Shown here: positions 176 to 23,132 of the stretch, piece after piece
How the letters are laid out: every line of letters begins with the position of its first letter
Position numbering within the stretch: position 1 is the stretch's first letter
DNA from: an uncultured Chromatiaceae bacterium
GTDB taxonomy: Bacteria; Pseudomonadota; Gammaproteobacteria; Enterobacterales; Alteromonadaceae
Length of the DNA: 23,371 nucleotides
Direction of reading: 5' to 3'
Assembly (NCBI GenBank): GCA_946482615.1
Contig: CAMLSF010000047.1
Location: 1-23,371 of the forward strand
Notes under the pieces: generated by a model
Databases searched by the model: none
Seen by the model: only the letters and a program-made list of their open reading frames with translations
Told to the model about the DNA's origin: nothing
Made by a program: the position numbers and the translations under genes

Positions 176-625
176 ATGAGTAGATATGAATCCGCATCCC
201 ACGTGTTCTATCGATGTCAGTATCACATCGTTTGGACGCCGAAGTACAGATACAAAATCCTGACAGGAAATGTAGGAAAAGAACTGTACCGAAGTATCTA
301 TGTGTACTGTGCGATGAAGAAATGCAAAGTGGTAGAACTGAATGTACAGATAGACCATGTGCATTTGGTAGTGAGGACACCACCGAATGTGAGTGTTTCG
401 GAACTGATGGGGGTATTGAAAGGGAGGACGGCGATCCGGGTTTTCAATAAATTCCCGTATCTTCGGAAGAAGAAGCTCTGGGGTAATCACTTTTGGCAGC
501 GAGGATATTTCGTAGATTCAGTGGGTGCGAACGAAGACATAATAAGGCGATATGTGCGGCATCAGGATAAAGTTGCTCGTGAAGATGAGGAACGTCAACT
601 GATGTTGGATATGGAACCTAGATAA
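176..625 (+). CDS. tnpA: IS200/IS605 family transposase TnpA (Y1 HUH)
   Basis: Single-strand DNA transposase of the Y1 HUH type, 149 aa, the usual full length for this family. The HUH metal-binding motif is H61-V-H63 in the segment IDHVHLVV. The catalytic tyrosine is most likely Y126, with Q130 four residues later (RYVRHQ), matching the helix-D Y-x3-Q arrangement known from IS608 TnpA. The segment WQRGYFVDSVG (107-117) is also typical of IS200-type members. A GAGGAA Shine-Dalgarno lies about 10 nt upstream of the ATG. The gene is intact, so the element may be active. A GGGGCTATGCCC foldback upstream (about 104-115) could shield it from outside transcription, as described for IS200, but this is inference. 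Confidence 0.93.
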   Translation: MSRYESASHVFYRCQYHIVWTPKYRYKILTGNVGKELYRSIYVYCAMKKCKVVELNVQIDHVHLVVRTPPNVSVSELMGVLKGRTAIRVFNKFPYLRKKKLWGNHFWQRGYFVDSVGANEDIIRRYVRHQDKVAREDEERQLMLDMEPR

Positions 626-765: not shown

Positions 766-2184
766 TTAACCTGCCAACTGTGGCCCTAACCACAAACTAA
801 ACAAGCTAATTGCCACTATACCAACCAGATTTAACACTAAGCCTGCCCGCACCATATCTTTGATCTGCAGTTTACCTGACGCAAACACTATAGCGTTGGG
901 CGGCGTTGCTACAGGCAGCATAAAAGCGAAGCTTGCGGCTAAAGCAGCCGGCACTACTAAATACAATGGCGATAACTCCATAGAGACAGCAACAGGCCCC
1001 AATAACGGCAGGAAGGCTGCGGCTGTGGCGGTATTACTGGTCACTTCGGTCAGGAAGATGATCAGACTGGTCACGGCCACCAATAACAGGATAGGAGGCA
1101 CACCATCCAGTAACTGCAGTTGTTGCGCTAAAAGTTCAGCCACGCCGGTTTTTTGGATCTGATCCGCCATGCTCAAACCACCGCCAAACAGTAACAACAC
1201 CCCCCAGGGCACATTCTGACTGTCTTTCCATTCCAACAAGGCAGTACCTGAGCCTTTTTCTCCCGGCAATAAAAACAACAAAGCAGCGGCACAAAGCGCA
1301 ATCACAGTATCGCTGATAGGTAACCCCGTCCATTTCACTAACCATTGCTGACTGATCCAACTGAAAGCGGCCAATGCAAAGACCAGCAGCACCAGTTTTT
1401 GTGAACGCGACATCTGCCCAAGCGCCTTTAACTGCAGCGCGCTGTCGTTTGGTGCAGATTCGGTTTTGGGCATACGGAAATGAAATTTAGTCAGCCAGAT
1501 CCAGCAGACGATTAACATGGTCAGTGCCAAAGGCACACCCAAAATCATCCAATGTGCAAAGCTGATTTGAATACCATAACTTTTAGACAGATAAGCAGCT
1601 AATAACGCATTGGGCGGTGTACCTATCAGAGTGGCGATTCCACCAATACTGGCACTGTACGCAATAGCTAATAAGACGGCTTTACCAAACTGATCCTGAG
1701 TAGAGGCATTGGCCATGGCAATAATGGACAACCCAATGGGCAGCATCATCACAGCAGTTGCAGTGTTTGACATCCACATGGATAAAAAAGCAGTGACGCC
1801 CATCAGGGCCGCAATTTGCAACCCCGGCGAAGTGCCCACCAAAGACAATGCTTTTAACGCGATGCGTTTATGCAGGTTAGTTTTTTCCATCGCAATAGAC
1901 AGGAAAAAGCCGCCGAAAAATAAAAAAATCAGCGGATGAGCATAAGGTGAAGTTGCAGCATCCAGTTTATCTATACCCAATAACGGAATAAAAATCATCG
2001 GCAGCAATGAAGTGACGGGAATAGGCACAATTTCAGTGATCCACCACAACACCATCCAGGCCATTAAGCCTGTAACCATCCAGGCCGCCTGAGTCATCTG
2101 AGCGGCTGGAGGAGGCAAAATAATGGTCAGTAAAAGCAGTAGGGGGCCACAGAGCAAAAGCAAACGGCTGGTCACAGCAGACAT
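766..2184 (-). CDS. SLC13/DASS family sodium-coupled anion (dicarboxylate) symporter
   Basis: Inner-membrane protein of 472 aa with about eleven or twelve hydrophobic segments. Both halves carry the Ser-Asn-Thr motif that binds substrate carboxylate and sodium in this family (S139-N-T141 and S383-N-T385). Each is followed by a PPNA-type turn (TPPNALLA in the first half, TPPNAIVF near residue 427). Length and motifs fit Na+/dicarboxylate or CitT-like carriers. The exact substrate cannot be read from sequence, but its place downstream of dctA and a porin suggests C4-dicarboxylates. The start ATG has AAGGA upstream. It begins 44 nt after the porin stop, with a hairpin in between that may reduce its transcription relative to dctA. 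Confidence 0.88.
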   Translation of the reverse strand: MSAVTSRLLLLCGPLLLLLTIILPPPAAQMTQAAWMVTGLMAWMVLWWITEIVPIPVTSLLPMIFIPLLGIDKLDAATSPYAHPLIFLFFGGFFLSIAMEKTNLHKRIALKALSLVGTSPGLQIAALMGVTAFLSMWMSNTATAVMMLPIGLSIIAMANASTQDQFGKAVLLAIAYSASIGGIATLIGTPPNALLAAYLSKSYGIQISFAHWMILGVPLALTMLIVCWIWLTKFHFRMPKTESAPNDSALQLKALGQMSRSQKLVLLVFALAAFSWISQQWLVKWTGLPISDTVIALCAAALLFLLPGEKGSGTALLEWKDSQNVPWGVLLLFGGGLSMADQIQKTGVAELLAQQLQLLDGVPPILLLVAVTSLIIFLTEVTSNTATAAAFLPLLGPVAVSMELSPLYLVVPAALAASFAFMLPVATPPNAIVFASGKLQIKDMVRAGLVLNLVGIVAISLFSLWLGPQLAG

Positions 2185-2202
2185 AGAGGATCCTTAACAA
2201 AA

Positions 2203-2224
2203 TCAACCGGAGCTAAGCTCCGGT
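2203..2224 (-). terminator. Intercistronic hairpin between porin and SLC13 symporter
   Basis: ACCGGAGCTAAGCTCCGGT is a strong stem located 5 nt past the porin stop codon on the minus strand. It is followed by TTGATTTTG, which is only a broken T-run. It is probably a partial terminator or an mRNA 3' stabiliser that sets unequal expression within the operon. Confidence 0.6.
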
Positions 2225-2228
2225 CTGT

Positions 2229-3185
2229 TCAGAAAAAGAACTTAAAGCCAACAGCGGCTGCATGGTCTTTTTCGGTTTCGAACTTGAGTGTGGACAGAAG
2301 CAGGTAAGTCGTCAAATTGTTTCGCCATTGATAATCAAGGCCGAGATTATTCAGGCGGGCTTTTTCGGCGTGGCGGGTCTGACTGTCATCTTTTTGCCAT
2401 TGCCATTTGTAAGTAAAGTCGCCGCGCTGATAACTCAGCTGAGCCAGCCAGGCATCGCCCTGGATATGACGCACCACATGTTCACTGTGCTGATACATCA
2501 GGCCAGCCGCAAGTACAGCACCGTCTTGTTGCCACAATGGCAGCTGAGCTAATAAACGTTCGGCAGTGATATTATTCAGCTCATCGGTGCGGCCATAAGC
2601 CAGATACAGTGGATACTTTTTTAAGGCCGGGTCGCCATAACCCAGCACCCAATCATAACCTCCGGCTGCTTCGTCGCTGGCTCCGGTCTGGTAGGTGGCT
2701 GAAAAGTTAAATCCGTTAATCACAGGCGACTGATAGCCCAGTATATTTTCCAGTCTGTCCTGACCCGGTGTGATTTGCGCTATGTCAGCCAGGGTTTCGT
2801 TAAATAAATCGATTTTGCCTTCAGATTTTTTAAACTTAGTGTCGTTTTTGCCAAAGATCAGTTCGCCATAGGTACCGGCAACACCAAAGTAGGTGTTACG
2901 GGATCCCAGTTTGTGATCTCTGTTGGCGTCATCCAGACCATTCACTTGCCATTCGTACACCGCAATAACAGCAAGTCCGTCGCTCAGTTGATGTTTAGCC
3001 TTTACGCCTAAGCGGGAAAAGGGCGCCTCAATCTGACGGCCCTGATCGGCGTATCTGTACAAGCCTTGATCAACGTCCAGCGCCTGTAATTCAACTTTGC
3101 CGTACCAATCCCATTCAAAAGCATGAGCTGCAGGGCTCAAAGCAAGAGTGGTACAGAGAGCAGCAGATAAATACGACTTAGCCAT
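2229..3185 (-). CDS. Gram-negative outer-membrane porin
   Basis: A 318-aa protein starting [11 protein letters not shown], with a classic Sec signal peptide of about 22 residues ending in AHA before FEWDWYGK. The mature part has alternating aromatic/polar strands and ends in a terminal phenylalanine (GFKFFF), the BAM recognition signature of beta-barrels. It resembles general porins of the OmpC/porin_4 type. The frame is open further upstream, but the real start is the ATG at 3185-3183, because GGAGG sits 6 nt before it and the signal peptide begins there. The first 8 nt overlap the end of dctA, so translation is probably coupled. It probably lets dicarboxylates reach the periplasm; this is inferred from position only. 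Confidence 0.87.
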
Positions 3186-4500
3186 GCTGGACCTCCGCAG
3201 TCGCAGTGTTGGCTGCCGTAGTGGTTTCTGCTGTTGTTGCTCCCTGGGCCAGTTCTCTGTCCAGTTGAGCTGTGTCCAGTTCACCACACCACTTAGACAC
3301 CACTAAAGTCGCCACACCGTTGCCTATTAAATTGGTCAAAGCCCGGGCTTCAGACATAAATCTGTCTATGCCTAAGATCAGCGCTATTCCAGCCACAGGC
3401 ACTGAACCTACCGAAGCTAAAGTAGCGGCCAACACAATAAAACCACTGCCTGTGACACCTGCAGCCCCTTTGGAGGTCACCAGTAACACAGCCAATAAGG
3501 TCAGTTGCTGGGTTAAATCCATCGGCGTATCTGTGGCCTGAGCAATAAATACCGCTGCCATGGTCAGGTAAATCGCTGTGCCATCCAGGTTAAATGAGTA
3601 ACCTGTTGGGATCACTAAACCTACAGTGGACTTGGTCGCGCCTAATTTCTCCAATTTGGCCATCATGCGGGGAAGCACAGATTCAGAGGATGAAGTGCCT
3701 AATACGATCAACAACTCCTCTTTGATATAACGGATAAATTTGGTGATCGAAAAACCGTGATAACGGCAAATGGCACCTAACACCACAAAAATAAAGACTA
3801 AACAGGTGATGTAGAAGGTTGCCATCAGGCCAGCCAGTGACCATAAAGTCGCAATGCCATATTTGCCTATGGTAAAAGCCATAGCGCCAAAAGCACCTAT
3901 AGGGGCCACTTTCATCAGCATATGCACTATGGCAAACAAGACCTCTGAGCTTTTTTCAACATAACCAAAAATCAGATTTTGCCGGCCCCCTAAACGCTGC
4001 AGCGCAAAACCAAACAGGATAGAAAAAAACAGCACTTGCAACATATCGCCGCGGGCAAAAGCGTCAAACACACTGCTGGGTATCACATTCAGTAAAAAAT
4101 CCGTGGTGCTTTGCATTTGATCAGGTGCTGTGTATTTGCTGATGGATTGCTGATCCAGACTGGCGGGGTCTATATGCATGCCGACACCAGGTTTGACGAC
4201 ATTAATCACTACTAAACCGATAATTAAGGCGATGGTAGAGACAATTTCAAAATAGAGCAGGGCATAACCCCCTGTTTTCCCTACTTTTTTCATATCTTCC
4301 ATACCGGCAATCCCCACCACTACAGTACAAAAGATGATGGGGGCGATAATCATTTTAATCAGCTTGATAAAGGCGGTGCCCAGAGGCTGCATGGCGGTGC
4401 CAAGCTCCGGGAAAAAATGACCTAAAAAAATACCAATACTGATGGCGAGTAACACCTGGATATAGAGGCTGGATAACAGCCTGATGGTTTTGGTTTTCAT
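3178..4500 (-). CDS. dctA: C4-dicarboxylate transport protein DctA (DAACS family)
   Basis: Inner-membrane symporter for succinate, fumarate and malate, 440 aa (E. coli DctA is 428). Family hallmarks are visible. The serine-rich re-entrant segment [12 protein letters not shown] is followed by [17 protein letters not shown] and then by [24 protein letters not shown] and [14 protein letters not shown]. These are the HP1, TM7 and HP2/TM8 elements that form the cation and substrate sites. The C-terminal tail is Thr/Ala-rich. Expression should depend on DctD and sigma-54, given the promoter at 4551-4566 and the palindromes at 4638-4688. The stop codon lies inside the start region of the downstream porin. 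Confidence 0.96.
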
Positions 4501-4550
4501 TGTTATTGTCTCTCTGAGTATGGAGAAAATCTCCCTGTCAGACAGTCAAT

Positions 4551-4566
4551 TGCAAAGAGAAAGCCA
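4551..4566 (-). promoter_or_regulatory. Sigma-54 promoter of dctA
   Basis: The minus strand reads TGGCTTTCTCTTTGCA. The -24 TGGC and -12 TTGC elements have the exact family spacing (10 bp between the GG and GC dinucleotides), although the bases after TGGC deviate from the ACG consensus. It lies about 50 nt upstream of the dctA ATG, with the palindromic activator sites some 72-120 bp further upstream. Confidence 0.8.
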
Positions 4567-4637
4567 GCTTTTTATCACTTACTATATTGTTTAAATACAA
4601 TGGGTTATTTTACTGTTGCCGAAGTTTTGTTGAGGCC

Positions 4638-4655
4638 TGTGCGGAATTCCGCACA
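4638..4655. promoter_or_regulatory. DctD upstream activator site 1
   Basis: TGTGCGGAATTCCGCACA is a perfect 18-bp palindrome centred about 85 bp upstream of the sigma-54 -24 element. It has the same half-site as the DctD-binding sites described for dctA genes (TGTGCG...CGCACA). The location and the adjacent dctD gene make DctD the natural ligand. Confidence 0.8.
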
Positions 4656-4670
4656 AATAAAAAATCACAG

Positions 4671-4688
4671 TGTCACTTAATCCGCACA
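4671..4688. promoter_or_regulatory. DctD upstream activator site 2 (half-conserved)
   Basis: TGTCACTTAATCCGCACA keeps one complete half-site (TCCGCACA) of the neighbouring palindrome. Its centre is 33 bp from the first site, about three helical turns, so two DctD dimers could bind on the same DNA face. It ends 8 bp before the dctD stop codon. Confidence 0.65.
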
Positions 4689-4696
4689 AGCAGGAG

Positions 4697-6079
4697 TTAG
4701 TCTTCCTGCTTGTCCAGAAAATCACGGCGCGTCAGCTGGTATTTTGCCATTTTGTCGTACAAGGTTTTACGCGGCAAATCCAGCTCGGCCATCACAGCTT
4801 TAATAGCGCCTTTATGTTGGTTCAGCGCTTCTTCGAGCAGCATTTTTTCATAATATTCCACCCGTTGCTGCAGGCTCATGCTACCGCTAATGCCATGGCC
4901 GGCGTTATGGGGCTGTTGGCTAAAGGCGATGTCCGCACCCATCAACACATAACGCTCGGCCATATTACGCAGTTCCCGCACATTACCGGGCCACTGATGC
5001 TGCGCCAGTTGCTGCAGTTCTGCCGCCTGAAGAGGAATGTATTCCTTATGAAAACGGGCTGCTGCTATACGGGCAAAATGCGCAAATAATAAAAACACAT
5101 CATCTTTGCGTTGACGCAGTGGAGGTAAATGCAAATCCACCAGCGACAGGCGGTAATACAGGTCACTACGAAACTCGCCCGATGCGGCCAGCTGTTTTAA
5201 ATCGGCTTTGCTGGCGGCTATCACCCTGATATCCAACTCTATCGTCTGATTTGAACCCAAGCGTGTTACTTTGCGTTCCTCCAGTACCCTCAGCAGTTTC
5301 ACCTGCAAAGATAAGGGGGTGCTTTCGATTTCATCCAGCAGCAGAGTTCCGCCATTGGCGAACTCAAACTTCCCGATACGTTTTTTGTCTGCGCCGGTAA
5401 AAGCACCGGCTTCAGCACCAAAGAGCTCACTTTCAATCAACTGCTCCGGAATAGCACCACAGTTAATGGCAACAAAATTATGCTGACGTCTGTCGCTTTG
5501 TTCATGTAAATAACGAGCGACCAGCTCTTTGCCTGTGCCTGTTTCGCCGTAAATCAACACATCAGCAGGAGCATTGATCACGGCATCCAGAGTGCGGCGC
5601 AGCTGCTGCATGGCCGGACTTTGGCCTAAAATACGTAAACCGGGTTGTTGCTCCCGCTCAACAGCAGCTTTTAACTGCCGGTTTTCCAGCACCAGCTGGC
5701 GTTTTTCCAGAGCGCGGCGACTGACTTCAACCAGGTGGTCGTTATCAAAAGGTTTTTCCAGAAAATCATAAGCCCCTTGTTGCATCGCCTTTACAGCAAG
5801 AGAAACAGCACCGTACCCTGTCAGCATCACCACTGGGATCTCGGCGTCAATAGCATGAATTTTCTGCAGCAGTTCCAGGCCGTTTAAAGCCGGCATATGC
5901 ATATCGGTAATGACGATGCCGTCAAATCTTGTACTGATACGACTTAAAATATCAGCCGGGTTGGCCGTGCTGCTGCACAGCAAATCTTCCAGTTTAAACA
6001 ACTGACTGACCGCACTGCGGATATCGGCTTCATCGTCGATAAAAAGAATAGTTGGACTCTGTTGCTCTGTATTGGCCAT
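4697..6079 (-). CDS. dctD: C4-dicarboxylate response regulator DctD (NtrC family, sigma-54 activator)
   Basis: A 460-aa three-domain activator. The N-terminal receiver domain has acidic residues D15/D16, phospho-acceptor D59 (VITDMHMP), T87 and K109. The central AAA+ sigma-54 interaction domain has Walker A GETGTGKE (178-185), the sigma-54 contact loop GAFTGA (225-230) and Walker B TLLLDE (245-250). A Fis-type helix-turn-helix at about 420-455 binds DNA. DctD activates dctA after phosphorylation by DctB. Its start codon follows the dctB stop codon immediately, so the two are translated together. The C-terminus lies next to its own likely binding sites upstream of dctA. No terminator was seen between dctD and dctA. 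Confidence 0.95.
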   Translation of the reverse strand: MANTEQQSPTILFIDDEADIRSAVSQLFKLEDLLCSSTANPADILSRISTRFDGIVITDMHMPALNGLELLQKIHAIDAEIPVVMLTGYGAVSLAVKAMQQGAYDFLEKPFDNDHLVEVSRRALEKRQLVLENRQLKAAVEREQQPGLRILGQSPAMQQLRRTLDAVINAPADVLIYGETGTGKELVARYLHEQSDRRQHNFVAINCGAIPEQLIESELFGAEAGAFTGADKKRIGKFEFANGGTLLLDEIESTPLSLQVKLLRVLEERKVTRLGSNQTIELDIRVIAASKADLKQLAASGEFRSDLYYRLSLVDLHLPPLRQRKDDVFLLFAHFARIAAARFHKEYIPLQAAELQQLAQHQWPGNVRELRNMAERYVLMGADIAFSQQPHNAGHGISGSMSLQQRVEYYEKMLLEEALNQHKGAIKAVMAELDLPRKTLYDKMAKYQLTRRDFLDKQED

Positions 6080-7870
6080 TTAGGATCCTGTGGTGATGTT
6101 CAGCACCATAATAAACTCAGCTCCGCCTTGTGGCGCATTTCGTACTTCAAGCTGGCCACCAAAAGACTGCACTATACGTTGGGAGATAGACAAGCCCAAA
6201 CCCAGACCATCCCGTTGTTTGGTGGTGAAAAAGGCCTCAAAAATACGTTCTAAATGATGAGGCTCTATACCAGGCCCCTGATCACGGATATGCACACTGA
6301 CTTGTTGATCCTGAGTTTTCACCGCTACATGAAAGGCGGCATCGGCCTGACCTGCCATGGCCTGTATGCCATTGGTCAGAATATTCACCAGCACTTGCTC
6401 CAGCTGAATGCTGTCGGCCAGCACAGTGGGGGACAGATCAGGCAATTGCAACCTTATCTTGATGCCTTGTTGTTGGCATTGATGCCGCACTATCCCCAAT
6501 GCGTCCAGAATGAGTTTATTCACCTGTACCAGTTGGTTTTTGCCAGAGCTTTTACGGCTGAAATCTTTAAACTGGGCCACTATCACACTTAAGCGCTGCA
6601 TCAATTGCCGCATCGCCTGAATATTGGTTTTGGCGTCATCCAGATAACCTTTTTCAATCAGCTTCTCTGTGGTCTGTGCGTAACTTTGCAAGGCGGTCAG
6701 TGGCTGATTTAACTCATGATTTAACGAAGCAGATAAAGCACCAATAGTGGCAAGTTTAGCGGTTTGCACCAGATGTTGTTCTGTATGCGCCAATTCGGTT
6801 TCGGTTTGTTCACGCCGTTCAATCTGGCGTATCAGCTGCCTGTTGGTTTCTGCCAAATCTTTGGTGCGGGCTATCACCCGTTGTTCCAGTTGCTGATTAT
6901 GCTGCACTAACTGTTGATGGCGTTTTTTCCGCTCGCGCCGCACCCAAATGGCCAGCAAGGCCGAACTGTAGAGCAAAGTCACCAGAAGCATGGCGGACCA
7001 TAAGGCGGATTGCTGTGGTGCTGGTGAGGCCAAGACTGTTAAAGTCCAGCCGAACTCTGGCAAAGGTCGCTGGTATGGCAAAAAACTAAAGGTTTTATTG
7101 TCAAAGGGCAATTTCCACAGCGGGTAAGAGGGGGCGAGCCAGGCTGAGCCGATGGAATACTGCAGAGGTTCAATAGCCTGGGTGATATAGCGCTGCTGCT
7201 CTGTGGGGCTTAATGGGTTGCCAGTCAGACTGGTTAAACGCCACTGTGGGATATCGGACAAAAACACTTCGTCGCTTTGTCCCGTTACCATAAAATGACT
7301 ATCGGCTAAGCCGGCAATTTGCTGCTGATGTTGCTCTATAGGTTCCAGATCAACCTTAGCCACCATCACAGCCAGGATCCTGCCCTGAATACGGACAGGT
7401 ACACTGTAGTAATAACCACGGCGTTCACTGGTATGGCCCAGAGCATAATACTGAGCGTCCTGACCCGCCAGCGCATGTTGTACATAAGGCCGGAAGCCAA
7501 AATCCCGGCCCAGATAATAAATTCTTCCGTTAGCATTGGAACTGGCTATCACTATGCCGGATGGGTTTACCAGATATAAGTCGGCAACATCGGCACTACG
7601 CTGGAGTTGAAACAGATATTGATTCAGCTGATCTGCACTGCCCGGCAGATCACGCAGTAATGACTGCAATAACTCAGAGCTGGCGACCTGTTTGGGTAAA
7701 TCGGCGTAGCGGCCTATCTCATAGCGAATAAAAGCGGCGAGGTTTTCACTTTGCTGCTGCGCTTTGGCGGTCAGCTGCCGGTAGTTCCAGTGCTGCGCTG
7801 CTGAGGCGGCCAGCAGTAACACCAGCAGATAACCACACAGCAGCAGGACCCAGCGCAGCTGTTTACTCAT
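6080..7870 (-). CDS. dctB: C4-dicarboxylate sensor histidine kinase DctB
   Basis: A 596-aa membrane kinase. TM1 is at about residues 7-26 and TM2 at about 289-310. They flank a periplasmic sensor region of about 260 residues that fits the tandem PAS-like (double Cache) dicarboxylate sensor of DctB. A coiled-coil linker (315-370) leads to the HisKA domain with phospho-acceptor H385 in SLNHELNQPL. The ATPase domain has the N box (VNILTNGIQAM, about 495-505), G1 box (DQGPGIE) and G2 box (DGLGLGLS). It phosphorylates DctD. The ATG overlaps the TGA of rluF by one base, so the kinase is likely translated with the upstream rRNA-modification gene. Confidence 0.94.
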   Translation of the reverse strand: MSKQLRWVLLLCGYLLVLLLAASAAQHWNYRQLTAKAQQQSENLAAFIRYEIGRYADLPKQVASSELLQSLLRDLPGSADQLNQYLFQLQRSADVADLYLVNPSGIVIASSNANGRIYYLGRDFGFRPYVQHALAGQDAQYYALGHTSERRGYYYSVPVRIQGRILAVMVAKVDLEPIEQHQQQIAGLADSHFMVTGQSDEVFLSDIPQWRLTSLTGNPLSPTEQQRYITQAIEPLQYSIGSAWLAPSYPLWKLPFDNKTFSFLPYQRPLPEFGWTLTVLASPAPQQSALWSAMLLVTLLYSSALLAIWVRRERKKRHQQLVQHNQQLEQRVIARTKDLAETNRQLIRQIERREQTETELAHTEQHLVQTAKLATIGALSASLNHELNQPLTALQSYAQTTEKLIEKGYLDDAKTNIQAMRQLMQRLSVIVAQFKDFSRKSSGKNQLVQVNKLILDALGIVRHQCQQQGIKIRLQLPDLSPTVLADSIQLEQVLVNILTNGIQAMAGQADAAFHVAVKTQDQQVSVHIRDQGPGIEPHHLERIFEAFFTTKQRDGLGLGLSISQRIVQSFGGQLEVRNAPQGGAEFIMVLNITTGS

Positions 7871-9817: not shown

Positions 9818-10645
9818 CTATTTAGCTGCAGGCACAGACTGCAAATACTGACTGTTGGGTTGTTTTAAAATGGTCTGCCAGGAACCATAAGTCGGGTTGG
9901 CCAGGACAAACCATTTAGCCCCCCAGTAATCCTGATATTTATCTACCAGTGCCGAACGCTGTTCAGGTGTGATATTTTTTTTCACGTCCGGCAGGAAATC
10001 GCCAAAGTCATCCCCAATCGACATTAAAATACGGAAGTCTTTGGCGGCCAGCAAACGGCGGCTTTCTTTTTCACTGCTCCAGTCCTTTTGTTCTGACTTT
10101 AACCAGATTTGAGAGGCGTCGATCTTTTTTATACCCACAGCTTTTAAGTTGCGCAGCGTATCGGTTTTTTGTGGGCAGCTGTCATTGGAGCCGGCACGCT
10201 TTTCACACTCACGATTGCTGATATACAGCACTTTTACACCTGCAGCTTCGGCTTTGTTCACAAAGGCGACAGCGCCTGGCACAGCTTTGGCTGCGGCCAT
10301 AGCGACCCATTGGTCCCAACGTTTTGGATCATAACCAGCGTTTAACAGCACGCTTTGTGCTGCGGTTGGGGAGTTATCCAAAATAGTCTCGTCAATATCG
10401 ACAATAATGGCCAAAGGCAGCTGCTGGTAGTGACTGCTCTGGTTGGGTAAGGCGGTCCAGTTTTTATCTGCGATAGCATTGGGCAACTGCAGGGCAGCGG
10501 TCTGGTAGGTTTGTATGGCGCTGGCTTTAAATTCGGCTGAGGTTTGGTACCACAAAGTGGCATTCATATTGTCATGAGATGTTGCTTGTGAAGCAAAAGC
10601 GCATAACAGCAGGCTGGTTAGCAGCGAAGATACAGAGGATTTCAT
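9818..10645 (-). CDS. Secreted HAD acid phosphatase / 5'-nucleotidase, lipoprotein e(P4) family
   Basis: A 275-aa periplasmic phosphomonoesterase of HAD subfamily IIIB. Motif I is DIDETILDNS, with the nucleophile and acid/base at D83 and D85. Motif II is ISNRE, and the acidic motif IV is GDDFGDF. The N-terminal WYQTSAEFKA...QTYQ pattern is typical of the e(P4) group, whose members dephosphorylate NAD-derived nucleotides and other monoesters. A signal peptide starts MKSSVSSLL. The cysteine in LLLCAF lacks a proper lipobox because Leu precedes it, so this member is probably soluble. The frame continues to a TTG four codons upstream, but GGAG sits 7 nt before the chosen ATG, so that start is preferred. 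Confidence 0.9.
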   Translation of the reverse strand: MKSSVSSLLTSLLLCAFASQATSHDNMNATLWYQTSAEFKASAIQTYQTAALQLPNAIADKNWTALPNQSSHYQQLPLAIIVDIDETILDNSPTAAQSVLLNAGYDPKRWDQWVAMAAAKAVPGAVAFVNKAEAAGVKVLYISNRECEKRAGSNDSCPQKTDTLRNLKAVGIKKIDASQIWLKSEQKDWSSEKESRRLLAAKDFRILMSIGDDFGDFLPDVKKNITPEQRSALVDKYQDYWGAKWFVLANPTYGSWQTILKQPNSQYLQSVPAAK

Positions 10646-10700
10646 CAGAGACTCCAAAGGAAAAATTAGCAGGTTAAAAGGACAGGGTTGTTTCTACATA

Positions 10701-10728
10701 GAAAAAAGCCCCCGCACTGCGGAGGCCT
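10701..10728 (-). terminator. Terminator of the tubulin-like gene
   Basis: On the minus strand GCCTCCGC-AGT-GCGGGGGC, an 8-bp stem with one mismatch, is followed by TTTTTTC. It lies just after the stop at 10735 and isolates the gene from the acid phosphatase downstream. Confidence 0.87.
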
Positions 10729-10734
10729 TCAGAT

Positions 10735-12945
10735 TCAGGCTTTGTCCGCGGCGGGTTCAGCTTTGGCTGCTTTGTCAGACTGTTTATCCGACAAATTATT
10801 CAGAGAAATAACCTTAGTTTTACTGATCTTATGACGGTAAATCTCACGCAGATAATGAATAGACTTTTTCACACTGTCGCGGGATAAACGAATGTCATTG
10901 ATTGAGACAAATTTGTCTTTATTACGGATCAGCTCACGGTATTTTTTCTCGTACATTGGTTTGATTGCATACCAGTTGGTATCGAGAATTTTCGCCGGGT
11001 TTTCAAACTCATGCAGCATGCTGTCTAAACGTTCTTCGTCAAAGTGTTCGTCACGGATAAAGTCCAGCATGGCTTTGTCCAGCGAGTCATTAAAACGATA
11101 ATCGTCTTTGGCGAAACAACGTTTGATAAAAGACACTATCAGGGTCAGGAAATCGTCACTTAAACACGGACTTTTTACAATCAGTGTGGTTAATGAGATA
11201 TTGGCTGACGCGCCAATCACCAGTGCATAACGTTTTAAGGTGGTGTTCGGGAACAGGGTGTTTAAATGGCTTTTCAGGCGATTTAAATCCATGTACGACA
11301 GTTTGTAGTCTTTCGGTAACGAGATAATAGAGACCACTGACGAACAGTTTTTAAAGAAATGCAGGTCTTTTAAGTCTTTTGGATCGTAGCCACTTTTTAC
11401 ATAAGACGCTAAAGCTTCACGGTAACGGCCAGACTCTATAGGCAATAAACTGATCCCCTCAATGGCCTGGGTCACTTTGTTAAAGTGCGGCAGGTCGATG
11501 GAGCGGAAGAACAAGTCATCAATGTTTAAACCGCTGTTGCTGTTTTTGTCGAACAGTTTCAGTTTGTCCACTGCCGCAGGAGTGCTTGGGATCACCGACT
11601 CTGCATAAGCTACAGCCACAGGACCGGCCAGACTCATAAACAAGTCGTTGGCGTCTAACCGAATGGTTTCACCAATGTCGATACCAGCGCGGCGGAAGTA
11701 ATTTTCGTCGTAGTCTGTGGTCACGGCCTGAGCCGTTAAAATGTTGAAAATCTGCTGGGAAATATACTGGTTGGCATATTTTTCCATCGCATTAACATCG
11801 ATGTGCTGAATTTCACCATCATCGGTTTCTTCGGCATAACGCATAATATCGTTGGAGATCAGCATCATGGCGTTCCATGGCCGGATGCGGTGCATCACGC
11901 TGGACTCAGCGCTGTCTTCATTTTCCAGGTTGTAGGAGAAATCCCACTCTTCGGCCAGGTATTTACATAACAGACGGCCTGAGTTGATATGCAGCGCTTC
12001 TGACATCTCGACACCATGGTCAGTAATATTCGGCAGAATACAGATACCACTGGTGAAAATCGGCTCAAACACAAACGAATGACCGGCGTTGGCTTCGTTT
12101 TCTGTCTCAGGTCTGGTGTCGAAGGTTTTGGCCATATAAGCGTATTGCTGCGCCAAACCGAATTCTGAAGCCATACCAGAACCTGTACCACCGCCAGCAC
12201 TGAAAATATAGAAATACAAACGGGATTGGTTGGCTTTGATACCACAAGAGTCAATCAGGTACGAGTGAATAAATTTCCAATCCGGGTTAGAAAACTTCTG
12301 TGTGTCTTTATTCAGAATAATTTTGGCCAGATACTGACCCAGAATAGGGGCATTACCGGCACCACCCGCATGGACTTCGGACAAGTCCATAATTTTCATT
12401 TTGTTGTAATCTTGCAGGAAGTTGGACTTTTCGCCTTTATGCGAAAAACGAATACGGCCTTCAATGTCTTTATCCAGGTCACCCAACATCACCAGAGGTT
12501 CAATCAGAAACACAGGTTTAACCTGATGGGATTTATCCAGGTTGAGGCCTTTTTTAATCCAGCGCACAGGGCGGTATTCAGTTTCTTTTTGCTGGCGCTC
12601 TTCAATATTAAATTCATTCATATAGAAGCTGCGCGCGTTGTAGACAAGAGAGGCGACATCCAGCGCTATATTCGAGCCACAGCGGCCTAAACCAATTAAA
12701 CAGACCGAAGGAAACTGTTGCTGACGTCTGTTGGCATTTTCCTCTTCAGAGGCCGGGATAGGGAAAACACTGTTTCGCAAAGCATCCAGATTGGACAAAA
12801 TCCGGCTCAGGTCGCGTTCAGTGAAATACATATAGCGGCCCGAACCAAAATTCAGGTCAGCTTCAGTTTCAGTGGCAGAGAATGGACGTACTGTTAAATT
12901 GACATCGTCTTTACTGGCGCTGCTTTTTATCACTTTTGTACTCAT
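10735..12945 (-). CDS. Large tubulin/FtsZ-superfamily GTPase-like protein, function unknown
   Basis: A 736-aa protein that carries the tubulin/FtsZ nucleotide-binding loops in order. T1 is LIGLGRCGSN (83-92) and the T3-like loop is GGAGNAPILG (194-203). T4 is the tubulin signature SAGGGTGSG (249-257), and a T5-like segment is FEPIFTSG (293-300). T6 is LISNDIM (362-368), corresponding to FtsZ PND and contacting the guanine. A helical H7 stretch (387-408) follows. T7 is RLDANDL (429-435), keeping the two acidic residues (D431, D434) needed for GTP hydrolysis. It is about twice the length of FtsZ, with an 80-residue N-terminal extension, insertions between the loops, an extra C-terminal region and a charged Lys/Ala tail. 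There is no signal peptide or membrane segment. It may belong to the Tubulin_2 group. It is a single gene with GGAAGG before the ATG and its own terminator. The fold assignment is firm; the role is not known. Confidence 0.82.
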   Translation of the reverse strand: MSTKVIKSSASKDDVNLTVRPFSATETEADLNFGSGRYMYFTERDLSRILSNLDALRNSVFPIPASEEENANRRQQQFPSVCLIGLGRCGSNIALDVASLVYNARSFYMNEFNIEERQQKETEYRPVRWIKKGLNLDKSHQVKPVFLIEPLVMLGDLDKDIEGRIRFSHKGEKSNFLQDYNKMKIMDLSEVHAGGAGNAPILGQYLAKIILNKDTQKFSNPDWKFIHSYLIDSCGIKANQSRLYFYIFSAGGGTGSGMASEFGLAQQYAYMAKTFDTRPETENEANAGHSFVFEPIFTSGICILPNITDHGVEMSEALHINSGRLLCKYLAEEWDFSYNLENEDSAESSVMHRIRPWNAMMLISNDIMRYAEETDDGEIQHIDVNAMEKYANQYISQQIFNILTAQAVTTDYDENYFRRAGIDIGETIRLDANDLFMSLAGPVAVAYAESVIPSTPAAVDKLKLFDKNSNSGLNIDDLFFRSIDLPHFNKVTQAIEGISLLPIESGRYREALASYVKSGYDPKDLKDLHFFKNCSSVVSIISLPKDYKLSYMDLNRLKSHLNTLFPNTTLKRYALVIGASANISLTTLIVKSPCLSDDFLTLIVSFIKRCFAKDDYRFNDSLDKAMLDFIRDEHFDEERLDSMLHEFENPAKILDTNWYAIKPMYEKKYRELIRNKDKFVSINDIRLSRDSVKKSIHYLREIYRHKISKTKVISLNNLSDKQSDKAAKAEPAADKA

Positions 12946-13211: not shown

Positions 13212-14858
13212 CTACATATTCGGATAATTCGGACCACCGGCGCCTTCTGGCGTCACCCAGGTGATGTTCTGACGTGGATCCTTGATATCGCAGGTTTTGC
13301 AGTGAATACAGTTTTGCGCATTGATCTGCAGTCGCGGCTGGTTGTTGTCCTCTACTATTTCGTATACACCAGCAGGGCAATAACGCTGCGCTGGTTCGTC
13401 ATACAAAGCAAGATTCACTGTCACCGGAATAGCAGCATCCGCCAGTTTTAAATGGCAGGGCTGATCTTCTTCATGGTTGGTGTTGGACAAGTACACCGAA
13501 GACAAACGGTCGAAACTAAGGACATTGTCTGGTTTGGCATACTGAATTTTTGGCGCTTCGGCTGCTGGTCTTAATGTCAGATGATCCACAGTCTCATCTT
13601 TTAAAGTAAAGGGCAGTTTGCCGGCAAAGATATTTTGATCCAGGGTATTAAAAGCACCGCCCCAGAAGGAGCCAAATTTATGCATGGCTGGGCCAAAGTT
13701 ACGGCTTCTGAATAATTCATCAAACAACCAGCTTTGTTCAAACTGCTCAGCAAATCCGGTCAGATCCGTGCCGGCTTTCTCTTGCTGTAAGGCTGCGAAA
13801 ATAGTTTCAGCCGCCAGCATGCCGGATTTCATTGCAGTGTGGTTGCCTTTAATTTTGGCAAAATTCAGCGTGCCTGCGTCACAGCCAACCAACATACCGC
13901 CAGGGAAGGTCATTTTCGGCAGACTGTTCAGGCCACCTTTGGCAATAGCACGGGCGCCATAAGACACTCGTTTACCACCTTGCAGATACTGTTTAATCAC
14001 AGGATGCTGCTTGTAGCGCTGAAATTCTTCAAAAGGGCTCAGATGCGGATTGCTGTAGTTCAGATCCACTATTAAGCCCACTACAATCTGCTGACCTTCG
14101 GCATGGTACAAATAGCCACCACCGCTGGTATCGTCCTGCAAGGGCCAGCCAGCACTGTGCACCACTAAACCTTGTTGATGCTGCTCTGCAGGCACGTCCC
14201 AGATTTCTTTAAAACCCAAAGCGTAATGCTGAGGAGAGCGGCCTTTATCTAACTCAAAGCGGGAGATCAGTTGTTTGCCCAAATGGCCACGACAGCCTTC
14301 GGCAAACACAGTGTATTTACCACGCAGTTCCATGGCTGGGACATAACTGTCTTTTTGGCTGCCGTCATGCGCCACACCCATTTCGCCGGTAATCACACCT
14401 TTGACCACCTCGTCTTCAATCAGCAAGTCTGCAGCAGTAAAGCCAGGGAAAATTTCTACCCCCAGCTGTTCAGCCTGAGTGGCTAACCAACGGCATAAAT
14501 TGCCGATAGAGACAATATAATTGCCTTCGTTATGCATAGTCTTAGGCACCAGAAAATTTGGTAATTTTTGTGCCGCATTTTCGTTTTTAAACAGATAAAT
14601 ATGGTCATGCGTAACCGGGGCGGTTACGGGAGCATTCATTTTTTGCCAGTCTGGGAAGAGTTCATTTAAAGCGCGGGGTTCAAATACAGCGCCGGATAAA
14701 ATATGGGCGCCGACTTCAGAGCCTTTTTCCACCACACAAAGGCTTATGTCAGTGCCTGCGGCTTTGGCTTGTTGAGCTAAGCGGATAGCGGTCGACAACC
14801 CCGCAGGGCCTGCACCTACTATAACGACATCAAATTCCATCGATTCACGTTCAACCAC
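13212..14858 (-). CDS. Electron transfer flavoprotein-ubiquinone oxidoreductase
   Basis: A membrane-associated FAD / [4Fe-4S] enzyme that passes electrons from reduced ETF to ubiquinone in fatty-acid and branched-chain amino-acid catabolism. The 548-aa protein has an N-terminal FAD dinucleotide motif GAGPAG (15-20), the conserved VVEKGSEVGAHILSGAVFEP, and a C-terminal ferredoxin-like cluster with Cys494, Cys517, Cys520 and Cys523 (CPAG ... CIHCKTC). The GTG start is chosen because GAGG lies 5 nt before it and the resulting VERESMEFDVVIVG matches the MEREYMEFDVVIVG beginning of Pseudomonas homologues; an internal ATG six codons later has no good ribosome site. It is divergent from etfB-etfA, its redox partner, across a shared operator region. 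Confidence 0.96.
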   Translation of the reverse strand: MVERESMEFDVVIVGAGPAGLSTAIRLAQQAKAAGTDISLCVVEKGSEVGAHILSGAVFEPRALNELFPDWQKMNAPVTAPVTHDHIYLFKNENAAQKLPNFLVPKTMHNEGNYIVSIGNLCRWLATQAEQLGVEIFPGFTAADLLIEDEVVKGVITGEMGVAHDGSQKDSYVPAMELRGKYTVFAEGCRGHLGKQLISRFELDKGRSPQHYALGFKEIWDVPAEQHQQGLVVHSAGWPLQDDTSGGGYLYHAEGQQIVVGLIVDLNYSNPHLSPFEEFQRYKQHPVIKQYLQGGKRVSYGARAIAKGGLNSLPKMTFPGGMLVGCDAGTLNFAKIKGNHTAMKSGMLAAETIFAALQQEKAGTDLTGFAEQFEQSWLFDELFRSRNFGPAMHKFGSFWGGAFNTLDQNIFAGKLPFTLKDETVDHLTLRPAAEAPKIQYAKPDNVLSFDRLSSVYLSNTNHEEDQPCHLKLADAAIPVTVNLALYDEPAQRYCPAGVYEIVEDNNQPRLQINAQNCIHCKTCDIKDPRQNITWVTPEGAGGPNYPNM

Positions 14859-20711: not shown

Positions 20712-21068
20712 ATGAATAAGCGGCAGATTGTCACATTAATGCATAAGCTCCATTACAGAGATGTGGATACCTCGGATGGATATGAGCATCTGATGGTAGA
20801 TGGGAAATTTGAACTATCTAAGTTCGAACGGTTTGTTTATAGATACATAAACGAACCAAATATGGTGTTTTATGCCAATTCTCAATTGGCTGGGGTCGGA
20901 GATATTCAAGATGCATTTGAATTTACGAGAACAAACATGGCAGAAAATCGTATTCGTATAGCCAGCAATGATTTTCAGGCAAAAATTATTATCGAACCGA
21001 TCGGAGTAGGCATCGGCCACTTAACAAGTCAAAGCACTCAGACGCCGACAAGCGGCGCTGATGTTTGA
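20712..21068 (+). CDS. Cassette 1 protein, unknown (118 aa)
   Basis: A small soluble protein starting MNKRQIVTLMHKLHYRD. It has a helical, charged N-terminal half (FELSKFERFVYRYINEP) and no signal peptide, membrane helix or motif I recognise. The reading frame runs through most of its own attC, so the last 16 or so residues (Thr/Ser-rich, ending GADV) are encoded by the recombination site rather than by the cassette body. The ATG is 11 nt after the core cut site with no good Shine-Dalgarno, as is common for cassette genes. It is the first gene of the array and would be the most exposed to any promoter at the left edge. Confidence 0.7.
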   Translation: MNKRQIVTLMHKLHYRDVDTSDGYEHLMVDGKFELSKFERFVYRYINEPNMVFYANSQLAGVGDIQDAFEFTRTNMAENRIRIASNDFQAKIIIEPIGVGIGHLTSQSTQTPTSGADV

Positions 21069-21375: not shown

Positions 21376-21447
21376 CAAGCCTCGTCATTTGCAGCCTTCG
21401 GCTGCGGCGACGCTCACAAGTTCGCGCGCTTGCGCGGGTCGTTAGCT
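21370..21447 (+). repeat. attC site 2 (78 bp)
   Basis: Left core ATATAAC (21370-21376) and right core GTTAGCT (21441-21447) each differ from consensus at one position. AACAAGCC and GGGTCGTT pair near the ends. The centre holds an unusually stable extra stem, CGTC...GCAGCC-TTC-GGCTGC...GACG. Confidence 0.75.
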
Positions 21448-21462
21448 GCCAGTGGAGTGTCG

Positions 21463-21906
21463 GTGACTTTAAATGACTTAACTATAAATTTCTCTCATTT
21501 GGACAGAGATAATTTACTTGAAGATTGGGAGTGGCTTTTAAAAGGCGACTACTTGCCTATTCTGCTTTCAGCTTGCGGTGATGCTTTTGTTCAACATCTT
21601 TCTAATGGCGAAATTTGGTGGTTGGATAGTGCAGGTGCAGAGTTTTCAAAAGTAGCTGACTCACCTGAAGAATTTAACAAGCTACTCTCAGACAAAGAGT
21701 TTGTAATCGAGTACTTCGCCGTTCAAATGGTTGGAGATTTAATTCACTCAGGTAAAAAGCTCAACAACGGCCAAATTTATAGCCTTACGAAACCTTGGCT
21801 GCTTGGTGGTAAATATGAACTGTCTAATATTGAACCTACTGATATTGAGGTTCATTTCTCAATAACAGGTCAAATTGCAGAACAGGTAGCAAGTAATGGC
21901 AGCTAA
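21463..21906 (+). CDS. Cassette 3: T6SS immunity protein, Tdi1 C-terminal / DUF1851 family
   Basis: A 147-aa cytoplasmic protein. The pattern WEWLLKGDYLP, GDAFVQHLSNGEIWWLDSAG, then KPWLLGGKYELSNIEPTDIE and VHFSITGQIAEQV is the recognisable DUF1851 / Tdi1 C-terminal domain. The founding Agrobacterium Tdi1 protects against the type VI secretion DNase Tde1. The frame is open from 21430, but that start lies in the previous cassette. The GTG at 21463 has GGAG (21454-21457) 5 nt upstream and lies inside the cassette, so it is preferred; GTG at 21457 is an alternative. No toxin gene is next to it, so it is an orphan immunity gene carried by a mobile cassette. The stop lies in its attC. Confidence 0.82.
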   Translation: MTLNDLTINFSHLDRDNLLEDWEWLLKGDYLPILLSACGDAFVQHLSNGEIWWLDSAGAEFSKVADSPEEFNKLLSDKEFVIEYFAVQMVGDLIHSGKKLNNGQIYSLTKPWLLGGKYELSNIEPTDIEVHFSITGQIAEQVASNGS

Positions 21907-22544: not shown

Positions 22545-23132
22545 ATGACCAGAAAACCTGCTTCATACAACTCACTAAGTTTTCCTGATTTTGAATTTGG
22601 TCATTTGTTGCCGCCGAAAATCACACCTAACAATGTAAATGATTCGGAGCTTAGAGAATGTTTGTCGGCAGCAATCTATTTGGCAAGTCAAATTCAGTCA
22701 GCAGAAGGCGCTCTTCATCTTCGAGATGAAAATATTCGAAGTCTTTATTTCCGTGCCGCCCTTGCAGAGTTAATGAGGGTTGAAGATATTACGAAAAAAA
22801 TTGGTAAGCCACTGAAGTTCGATAAAACAGACAATCCCTTATTGCATACTGTGAAGCTAATGAGAAATTATCAGGTTCACATATCAGGCGTAACACTTGG
22901 TGCAGGTTTTGTATTAGTTGGCTTGGGTGGAGTTCATGGAGTATATGAGTCATATATTGTTAACAACCTTGATTCAAATGAGCTCAGAAAGCTAGATAGT
23001 GCTGCCAGCTATACAGACGATCAATTACAAGAGCTAATTTGCCTATTCAATGAGCATCAGCGAAGATTTGGGGTAGTTCAATTGTTATACAATACGTGCG
23101 TCTATGTTGGTAAATTGCTAGCGTCGGCCTAA
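22545..23132 (+). CDS. Cassette 5 protein, mainly helical, HEPN-like R-N-x3-H motif (195 aa)
   Basis: A soluble 195-aa protein starting MTRKPASYNSLSFPDFEFG. Residues 34-90 look like amphipathic helices (ELRECLSAAIYLASQI, SLYFRAALAELMRVED). Then LMRNYQVHIS gives R107-N108-x3-H112, the R-N/H-x(3-5)-H spacing of HEPN ribonuclease domains, which are also all-helical. A glycine/valine-rich segment (about 114-130) follows, then more helices. HEPN membership is a hypothesis from this motif only; the rest is unrecognised. The ATG is 11 nt after the core site without a clear ribosome site. The stop codon lies in the left core of its attC. Confidence 0.72.
   Translation: MTRKPASYNSLSFPDFEFGHLLPPKITPNNVNDSELRECLSAAIYLASQIQSAEGALHLRDENIRSLYFRAALAELMRVEDITKKIGKPLKFDKTDNPLLHTVKLMRNYQVHISGVTLGAGFVLVGLGGVHGVYESYIVNNLDSNELRKLDSAASYTDDQLQELICLFNEHQRRFGVVQLLYNTCVYVGKLLASA

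Follow-up and report, generated by a model that had tools for sequence, protein, structure and literature searches.

We report that an open reading frame (ORF; P0001) of 736 amino acids (aa), found in a 23,371-nucleotide (nt) stretch of DNA from an uncultured Chromatiaceae bacterium (contig CAMLSF010000047.1; hereafter the window), is the Rheinheimera member of FtsZl2 (FtsZ-like 2), a gammaproteobacterial family of large tubulin/FtsZ-like proteins described by Makarova & Koonin in 2010 with PFL_1302 of Pseudomonas fluorescens Pf-5 as its type (PMC2875224). The ORF occupies positions 10735..12945 of the minus strand, reading from an ATG at 12945 to 10735, and so bears out the original prediction of a 736-residue gene, which had omitted the strand. 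Its product has the signature GGGTGSG and the length of FtsZl2, is 98% identical to that of Rheinheimera tangshanensis and is 80% identical to the P. protegens FD6 protein that served as stand-in for PFL_1302. It is orthologous to the Pseudomonas and Marinomonas proteins, and the family is strongly conserved. Since P. protegens FD6 and Marinomonas posidonica have no GGGTG(S/T)G frames longer than 150 aa other than those of FtsZ and FtsZl2, the identification, made by sequence comparison, is firm. The reading that we favour, and hold to be rather probable, is that FtsZl2 forms a stand-alone GTP-dependent polymer, encoded by an accessory chromosomal one-gene unit that exists beside FtsZ and does not replace it.

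The suggestion that this might be an undescribed cytoskeletal system must be withdrawn, since FtsZl2 was published in 2010, long C-terminal region and absence of gene neighbours included (PMC2875224). That paper assigns to the family T1, T4, T6, T7, H7 and a C-terminal region of ~300 aa, and gives neither a function nor associated genes. Comparison with this description revealed no differences: both are proteobacterial, with GGGTGSG, the T-loops by the published alignment, a long, probably alpha/beta C-terminal region, a Pseudomonas member and no conserved neighbours. Among the papers listed by the literature searches there was no functional study of FtsZl2, and the family name occurred only in PMC2875224, its other use being as a mutant name (FtsZ L272E). 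The 736-aa protein is a true observation of a known but unstudied family; new relative to 2010 are the distribution counts, the one-gene presence/absence, the signs of horizontal movement and the map of invariant residues.

Kinship with tubulin and FtsZ

Relatedness to FtsZ is most evident in three loops. The T4 signature GGGTGSG (residues 251-257; 12175..12195, minus strand like all other features of the protein) is identical in all 55 diverse relatives compared, and none of 2000 shuffles equalled the query score against an FtsZ-derived T4 segment profile. The T1-like loop GLGRCGSN (residues 85-92; 12670..12693) and the T3-like loop GGAGNAP (residues 194-200; 12346..12366) are 95-100% conserved per position in the same relatives. 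Together with T4, they lay in register with their FtsZ counterparts in 3 of 3 MAFFT modes, and FtsZ profiles for T1 and T3 gave p 0.022 with the T4 position fixed. In contrast, the T6 candidate SND (residues 364-366; 11848..11856) and the T7 candidate LDAND (residues 430-434, with D431 and D434; 11644..11658), each invariant in 55 of 55 relatives, scored no better than chance with FtsZ profiles, SND ranking only 3 and RLDAND only 8 (p 0.88 for the pair), and T7 was aligned in 1 of 3 MAFFT modes. All five motifs lie where the original prediction placed them, T1, T3 and T4 aligning in order with FtsZ and T6 and T7 being candidates. Its further claim that the catalytic acids are kept is plausible, was already published (PMC2875224) and agrees with the invariance of D431 and D434, although the FtsZ profiles single out neither motif.

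With a profile of the whole FtsZ core, 55 of 2000 shuffles equalled the query score, as did 370-400 of 2000 with the three remaining FtsZ segment profiles. Since T4 alone was statistically clear in sequence tests and structure models were poor, it could be argued that the protein has no tubulin kinship, GGGTGSG being convergent and the other motifs coincidental. We consider this highly improbable. T1, T3 and T4 align in order, FtsZ was the top structural match by a margin in one model, and a published HHpred search gave E 0.0033 (PMC2875224). Moreover, two tubulin models were among the three weak matches to 24,736 Pfam families, all under curated cut-offs: Tubulin (E 0.0051, covering residues 244-260 only), DUF6562 (E 0.028) and Tubulin_2 (E 0.11). 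When 55 members were compared with Pfam at E<=1, Tubulin was matched by 55, Tubulin_2 by 54 and DUF6562 by 20. NCBIfam, PHROGs and PADLOC gave no match for the 736-aa protein, and PDB sequence searches gave weak matches only, which we took as unrelated. The tubulin/FtsZ-superfamily character originally proposed finds support in the motifs and in the 2010 description (PMC2875224).

Both structure models of the protein were of low confidence, likely owing to near-identical alignment rows; FtsZ rows were kept out of the input alignments because the models would otherwise have been FtsZ-driven. The model in which FtsZ ranked first had one FtsZ entry among the matches listed; in one model, residues 388-580 weakly matched FtsZ 181-299. 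Residues 593-717 contained helices in both. Residues ~440-592 are probably the normal second domain of the tubulin fold, so that of the large extra C-terminal region first described only the mostly helical residues ~593-717 (10795..11169; 51 of 125 positions invariant) would be truly extra, a boundary that we infer. Within the core, 313 of 680 residues are invariant in the 55 relatives, while the N-terminal tail (residues 1-37; 12835..12945) and the C-terminal tail (residues 718-736; 10738..10794) are variable, with 0 of 37 and 0 of 19 invariant positions, respectively.

In FtsZ and tubulin, the GTP site of one subunit is completed by T7 acids that its neighbour contributes, and the invariant D431 and D434 fit such a mechanism. 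By analogy, the T1, T3 and T4 loops of FtsZl2 would form the GTP pocket and subunits would assemble head to tail, D431 and D434 of one subunit entering the GTP site of the next, with GTP hydrolysis powering polymer turnover. Residues ~593-717 may lie on the filament exterior, where they would bind partners or adjacent strands. So wide an invariance hints at numerous contacts, perhaps those of a multi-strand polymer. FtsZl2 might instead bind GTP without forming filaments, serving as a switch or scaffold with the tubulin fold in which growth, lateral or head-to-tail, is prevented by the long C-terminal region. The chance-level T6 and T7 profile results are in keeping with this, as are long inserts between T1 and T4 and the extra C-terminal region, and the 2010 authors allowed for a non-filament role in the sister family FtsZl1, while they expected FtsZl2 itself to form filaments (PMC2875224). 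We nevertheless judge it unlikely: D431, N433 and D434 are invariant in the 55 relatives, as fits a catalytic T7, and the extent of core invariance appears to exceed what a soluble switch would need.

FtsZl2 is like FtsZ in its T4 glycine loop and in the register of T1 and T3, and unlike it in being nearly twice as long, in bearing a putative C-terminal extension of ~125 aa and in being accessory by distribution. It is not an ortholog of the division protein, which was a separate ORF in 8 of 8 FtsZl2 genomes checked. FtsZl1, which corresponds to Tubulin_2 (PF13809; PMC9871819), is likewise a non-division relative with a long C-terminal extension (PMC2875224, PMC9871819), and is encoded in operons alongside vWA genes, among others (PMC2875224). 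The query scored 12.2 bits against PF13809, under the cut-off of 27, and a PF13809 scan at E<=1e-5 was negative in all 150 genomes, including one FtsZl2 carrier (Marinomonas), with controls positive in 3 of 14. No FtsZl1-type operon of vWA, GTPase or kinase genes was found at the present locus, which is flanked by genes for an acid phosphatase and ETF-ubiquinone oxidoreductase (ETF-QO). TubZ, RepX and PhuZ are plasmid- and phage-borne members of the tubulin superfamily that form filaments. Unlike these, FtsZl2 had no match in plasmid and phage collections, and 0 of 85 pattern matches in viral contigs were confirmed. Phage or plasmid partition was rejected on these searches and that of PHROGs; a defence gene was rejected for want of a PADLOC match, and strong conservation likewise appears to argue against it.

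Distribution and suggested movement between lineages

A protein database search at E<=1e-3 returned 667 relatives of the query (best 120 of 667 listed), and one begun from the Marinomonas protein returned 648 (best 120 of 648 listed). When 84,980 species genomes were scanned with a pattern, 586 stretches matched, 563 of which encode a relative; the best 80 of these 563 belonged to Rheinheimera, Arsukibacterium, Alkalimonas, Alishewanella, Paraglaciecola, Cellvibrio and Pseudomonas, or to metagenome-assembled genomes without a genus. Among the matches listed (286 sequences), the lowest local identity to the query was 66.6%. FtsZl2 was present in 2 of 369 genomes of a class sample and 5 of 299 of a phylum sample (centre genome counted in each), in 29 of 48 genomes of the Marinomonas posidonica family, in 99 of the 149 genomes sampled from the genus to which P. 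protegens FD6 belongs and in 31 of 147 genomes of the family of R. tangshanensis. One genome, G928, carries the gene twice, both copies sharing 71% identity with the query. In two others the gene lies in two pieces in different frames (G872:C11:1196358-1198675 and G774:C620:116-2172), which are perhaps pseudogenes or assembly errors. The idea that FtsZl2 is more conserved than FtsZ was rejected: over 28 genome pairs it held for the cores in 21, yet FtsZ was the more conserved in both within-genus pairs. NNC codons were richer in the FtsZl2 gene than the flank mean at 68 of 76 loci, a usage that hints at good expression.

Two comparisons within the Marinomonas family isolate the FtsZl2 gene itself. 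At 505C, a Ppx/GppA-type gene, locus L140 has the order 505C-I-FtsZl2-J, whereas L147 has 505C-I-J with a gap of 123 nt; likewise, L139, L141, L142 and L143 read 505C-I-FtsZl2-O-J, whereas L159 reads 505C-I-O-J with a gap of 409 nt. No FtsZl2 remnant was detected in the L147 and L159 gaps (best E 0.024). Exactly the FtsZl2 gene was gained or lost in these two cases, the two directions being indistinguishable. These were the 2 clean cases among 16 regions from genomes without a match; L148 also lacks gene I, L146 reaches a contig end, and 12 were rearranged and uninformative. Among 7 regions with FtsZl2, the gene sits between I and either J or O in 5; in L136 one side is different, and in L138 the gene lies elsewhere. 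These findings suggest that FtsZl2 is a one-gene unit gained or lost without disturbing adjoining genes. They also bear on whether FtsZl2 modulates FtsZ or cell division by copolymerising or capping, for which the presence of FtsZ in all 8 genomes checked could be cited. We regard such a role as quite unlikely: FtsZl2 had no match in 50 of the 149 genomes sampled from one Pseudomonas genus and the gene is cleanly absent from Marinomonas relatives, so that division there has no need of it. Furthermore, no division gene was found among the Pfam-named neighbours, most neighbours being unannotated.

Horizontal movement between lineages is suggested by the protein tree. In a tree of 38 rows, the Cellvibrio copies were separate from Pseudomonas and shared a clade of 14 rows (99/99) with Rheinheimera, Arsukibacterium, Alkalimonas, Alishewanella and Paraglaciecola, whereas Cellvibrio FtsZ is closer to that of Pseudomonas than of Rheinheimera, both as a whole protein (75% versus 67%) and in its core (79-80% versus 76%). 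Forcing Cellvibrio together with Pseudomonas, plus L027 and L082, which are rows inside those groups, gave p-AU 0.018 for a grouping picked after the identities were known. A protein labelled Paraglaciecola sp. (P0135) lay inside the Marinomonas clade, while that of P. polaris grouped with Rheinheimera; the P0135 label could reflect a binning error. Fourfold-site identity between genera was 22-52%, and any transfers would therefore be old.

Gene neighbourhood

The gene stands alone, as the original prediction held, in the sense that no operon partner recurs. Directly 3' of its stop lies an intrinsic terminator-like hairpin with a T-run (10704..10730, minus strand; 12 pairs at 10730-10704), which agrees with the predicted terminator as a consensus match in a region that holds 5 such hairpins versus 2.7 expected. 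A ribosome-binding-like GGAAGG lies ahead of the start at 12957-12952. A HAD subfamily IIIB acid phosphatase gene follows on the same strand (9818-10657), and the end of the ETF-QO gene (13212-14858) lies 266 nt upstream. Inspection by eye of aligned upstream regions, 17 from the Rheinheimera group and 18 from Pseudomonas, revealed no shared promoter element. Across 91 region sets (90 loci and the window; the family ORF was found by exact motif in 84 of 91), genes being called with a simple ORF caller that is noisy in G+C-rich genomes, no neighbour was common to all lineages and no operon partner was conserved. Neighbours common to pairs of lineages were members of large families wherever named: a sodium:sulfate-symporter family transporter and an ArsC-like gene in G042 and the Rheinheimera group, an M48 peptidase in Pseudomonas and Alkalimonas, and a histidine kinase in Alishewanella and Rheinheimera.

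GGDEF-type genes likewise recur between lineages, and raise the question of whether FtsZl2 belongs to a multi-gene system, for example with an adjacent cyclic di-GMP enzyme. They lie <=8 kb from FtsZl2 in Pseudomonas, part of Marinomonas, G042, Paraglaciecola polaris and one Alkalimonas, and BLAST found one in 30 of 91 region sets and none in the other 61, the window included. GGDEF genes are very common, and the named enzymes differ in architecture. In Marinomonas the two are uncoupled, L148 and L159 having the GGDEF-type gene without FtsZl2 and L140 the reverse. Proximity is perhaps due to chance, and a multi-gene system appears very unlikely. The GGDEF-type genes at L055:4626-6902, L142:7414-10527, L137:2056-4791, L028:5498-6484 and L018:10217-13264 are unlike one another.

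Elsewhere in the window are an IS200-like transposase gene (176-625, plus strand; PF01797, E 1.9e-41) and a dicarboxylate-type cluster (766-7870, minus strand) comprising a sodium:sulfate-symporter family transporter, porin-like and DctA-like ORFs, a sigma-54 activator and a sensor kinase, with Pfam support for two ORFs and the others named by eye. A type VI secretion system immunity protein Tdi1 C-terminal domain is encoded at 21430-21906 (plus strand; PF08906, E 2.2e-15), and the ORFs at 20712-21068 and 22545-23132 had no Pfam match.

A possible one-gene cytoskeleton

A bolder version of the polymer reading, which we offer tentatively and as doubtful in its entirety, is that FtsZl2 constitutes a whole GTP-driven cytoskeleton in one gene. 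It would need no partner at its locus, would pass in and out of the chromosome without touching neighbours and would have been passed between gammaproteobacterial orders. Because nearly half of the core residues are fixed and both tails are variable, it might build a multi-strand tube or sheet with most of its surface buried, serving an accessory role in positioning or shaping in roughly two thirds of a single Pseudomonas genus. A whole cytoskeletal element moving horizontally as one gene would be unusual. If FtsZl2 does polymerise, then many Pseudomonas would possess a second, accessory tubulin-type filament beside FtsZ, and since it is a single gene, non-essential by distribution and present in tractable hosts, deletion and tagging could soon reveal its role.
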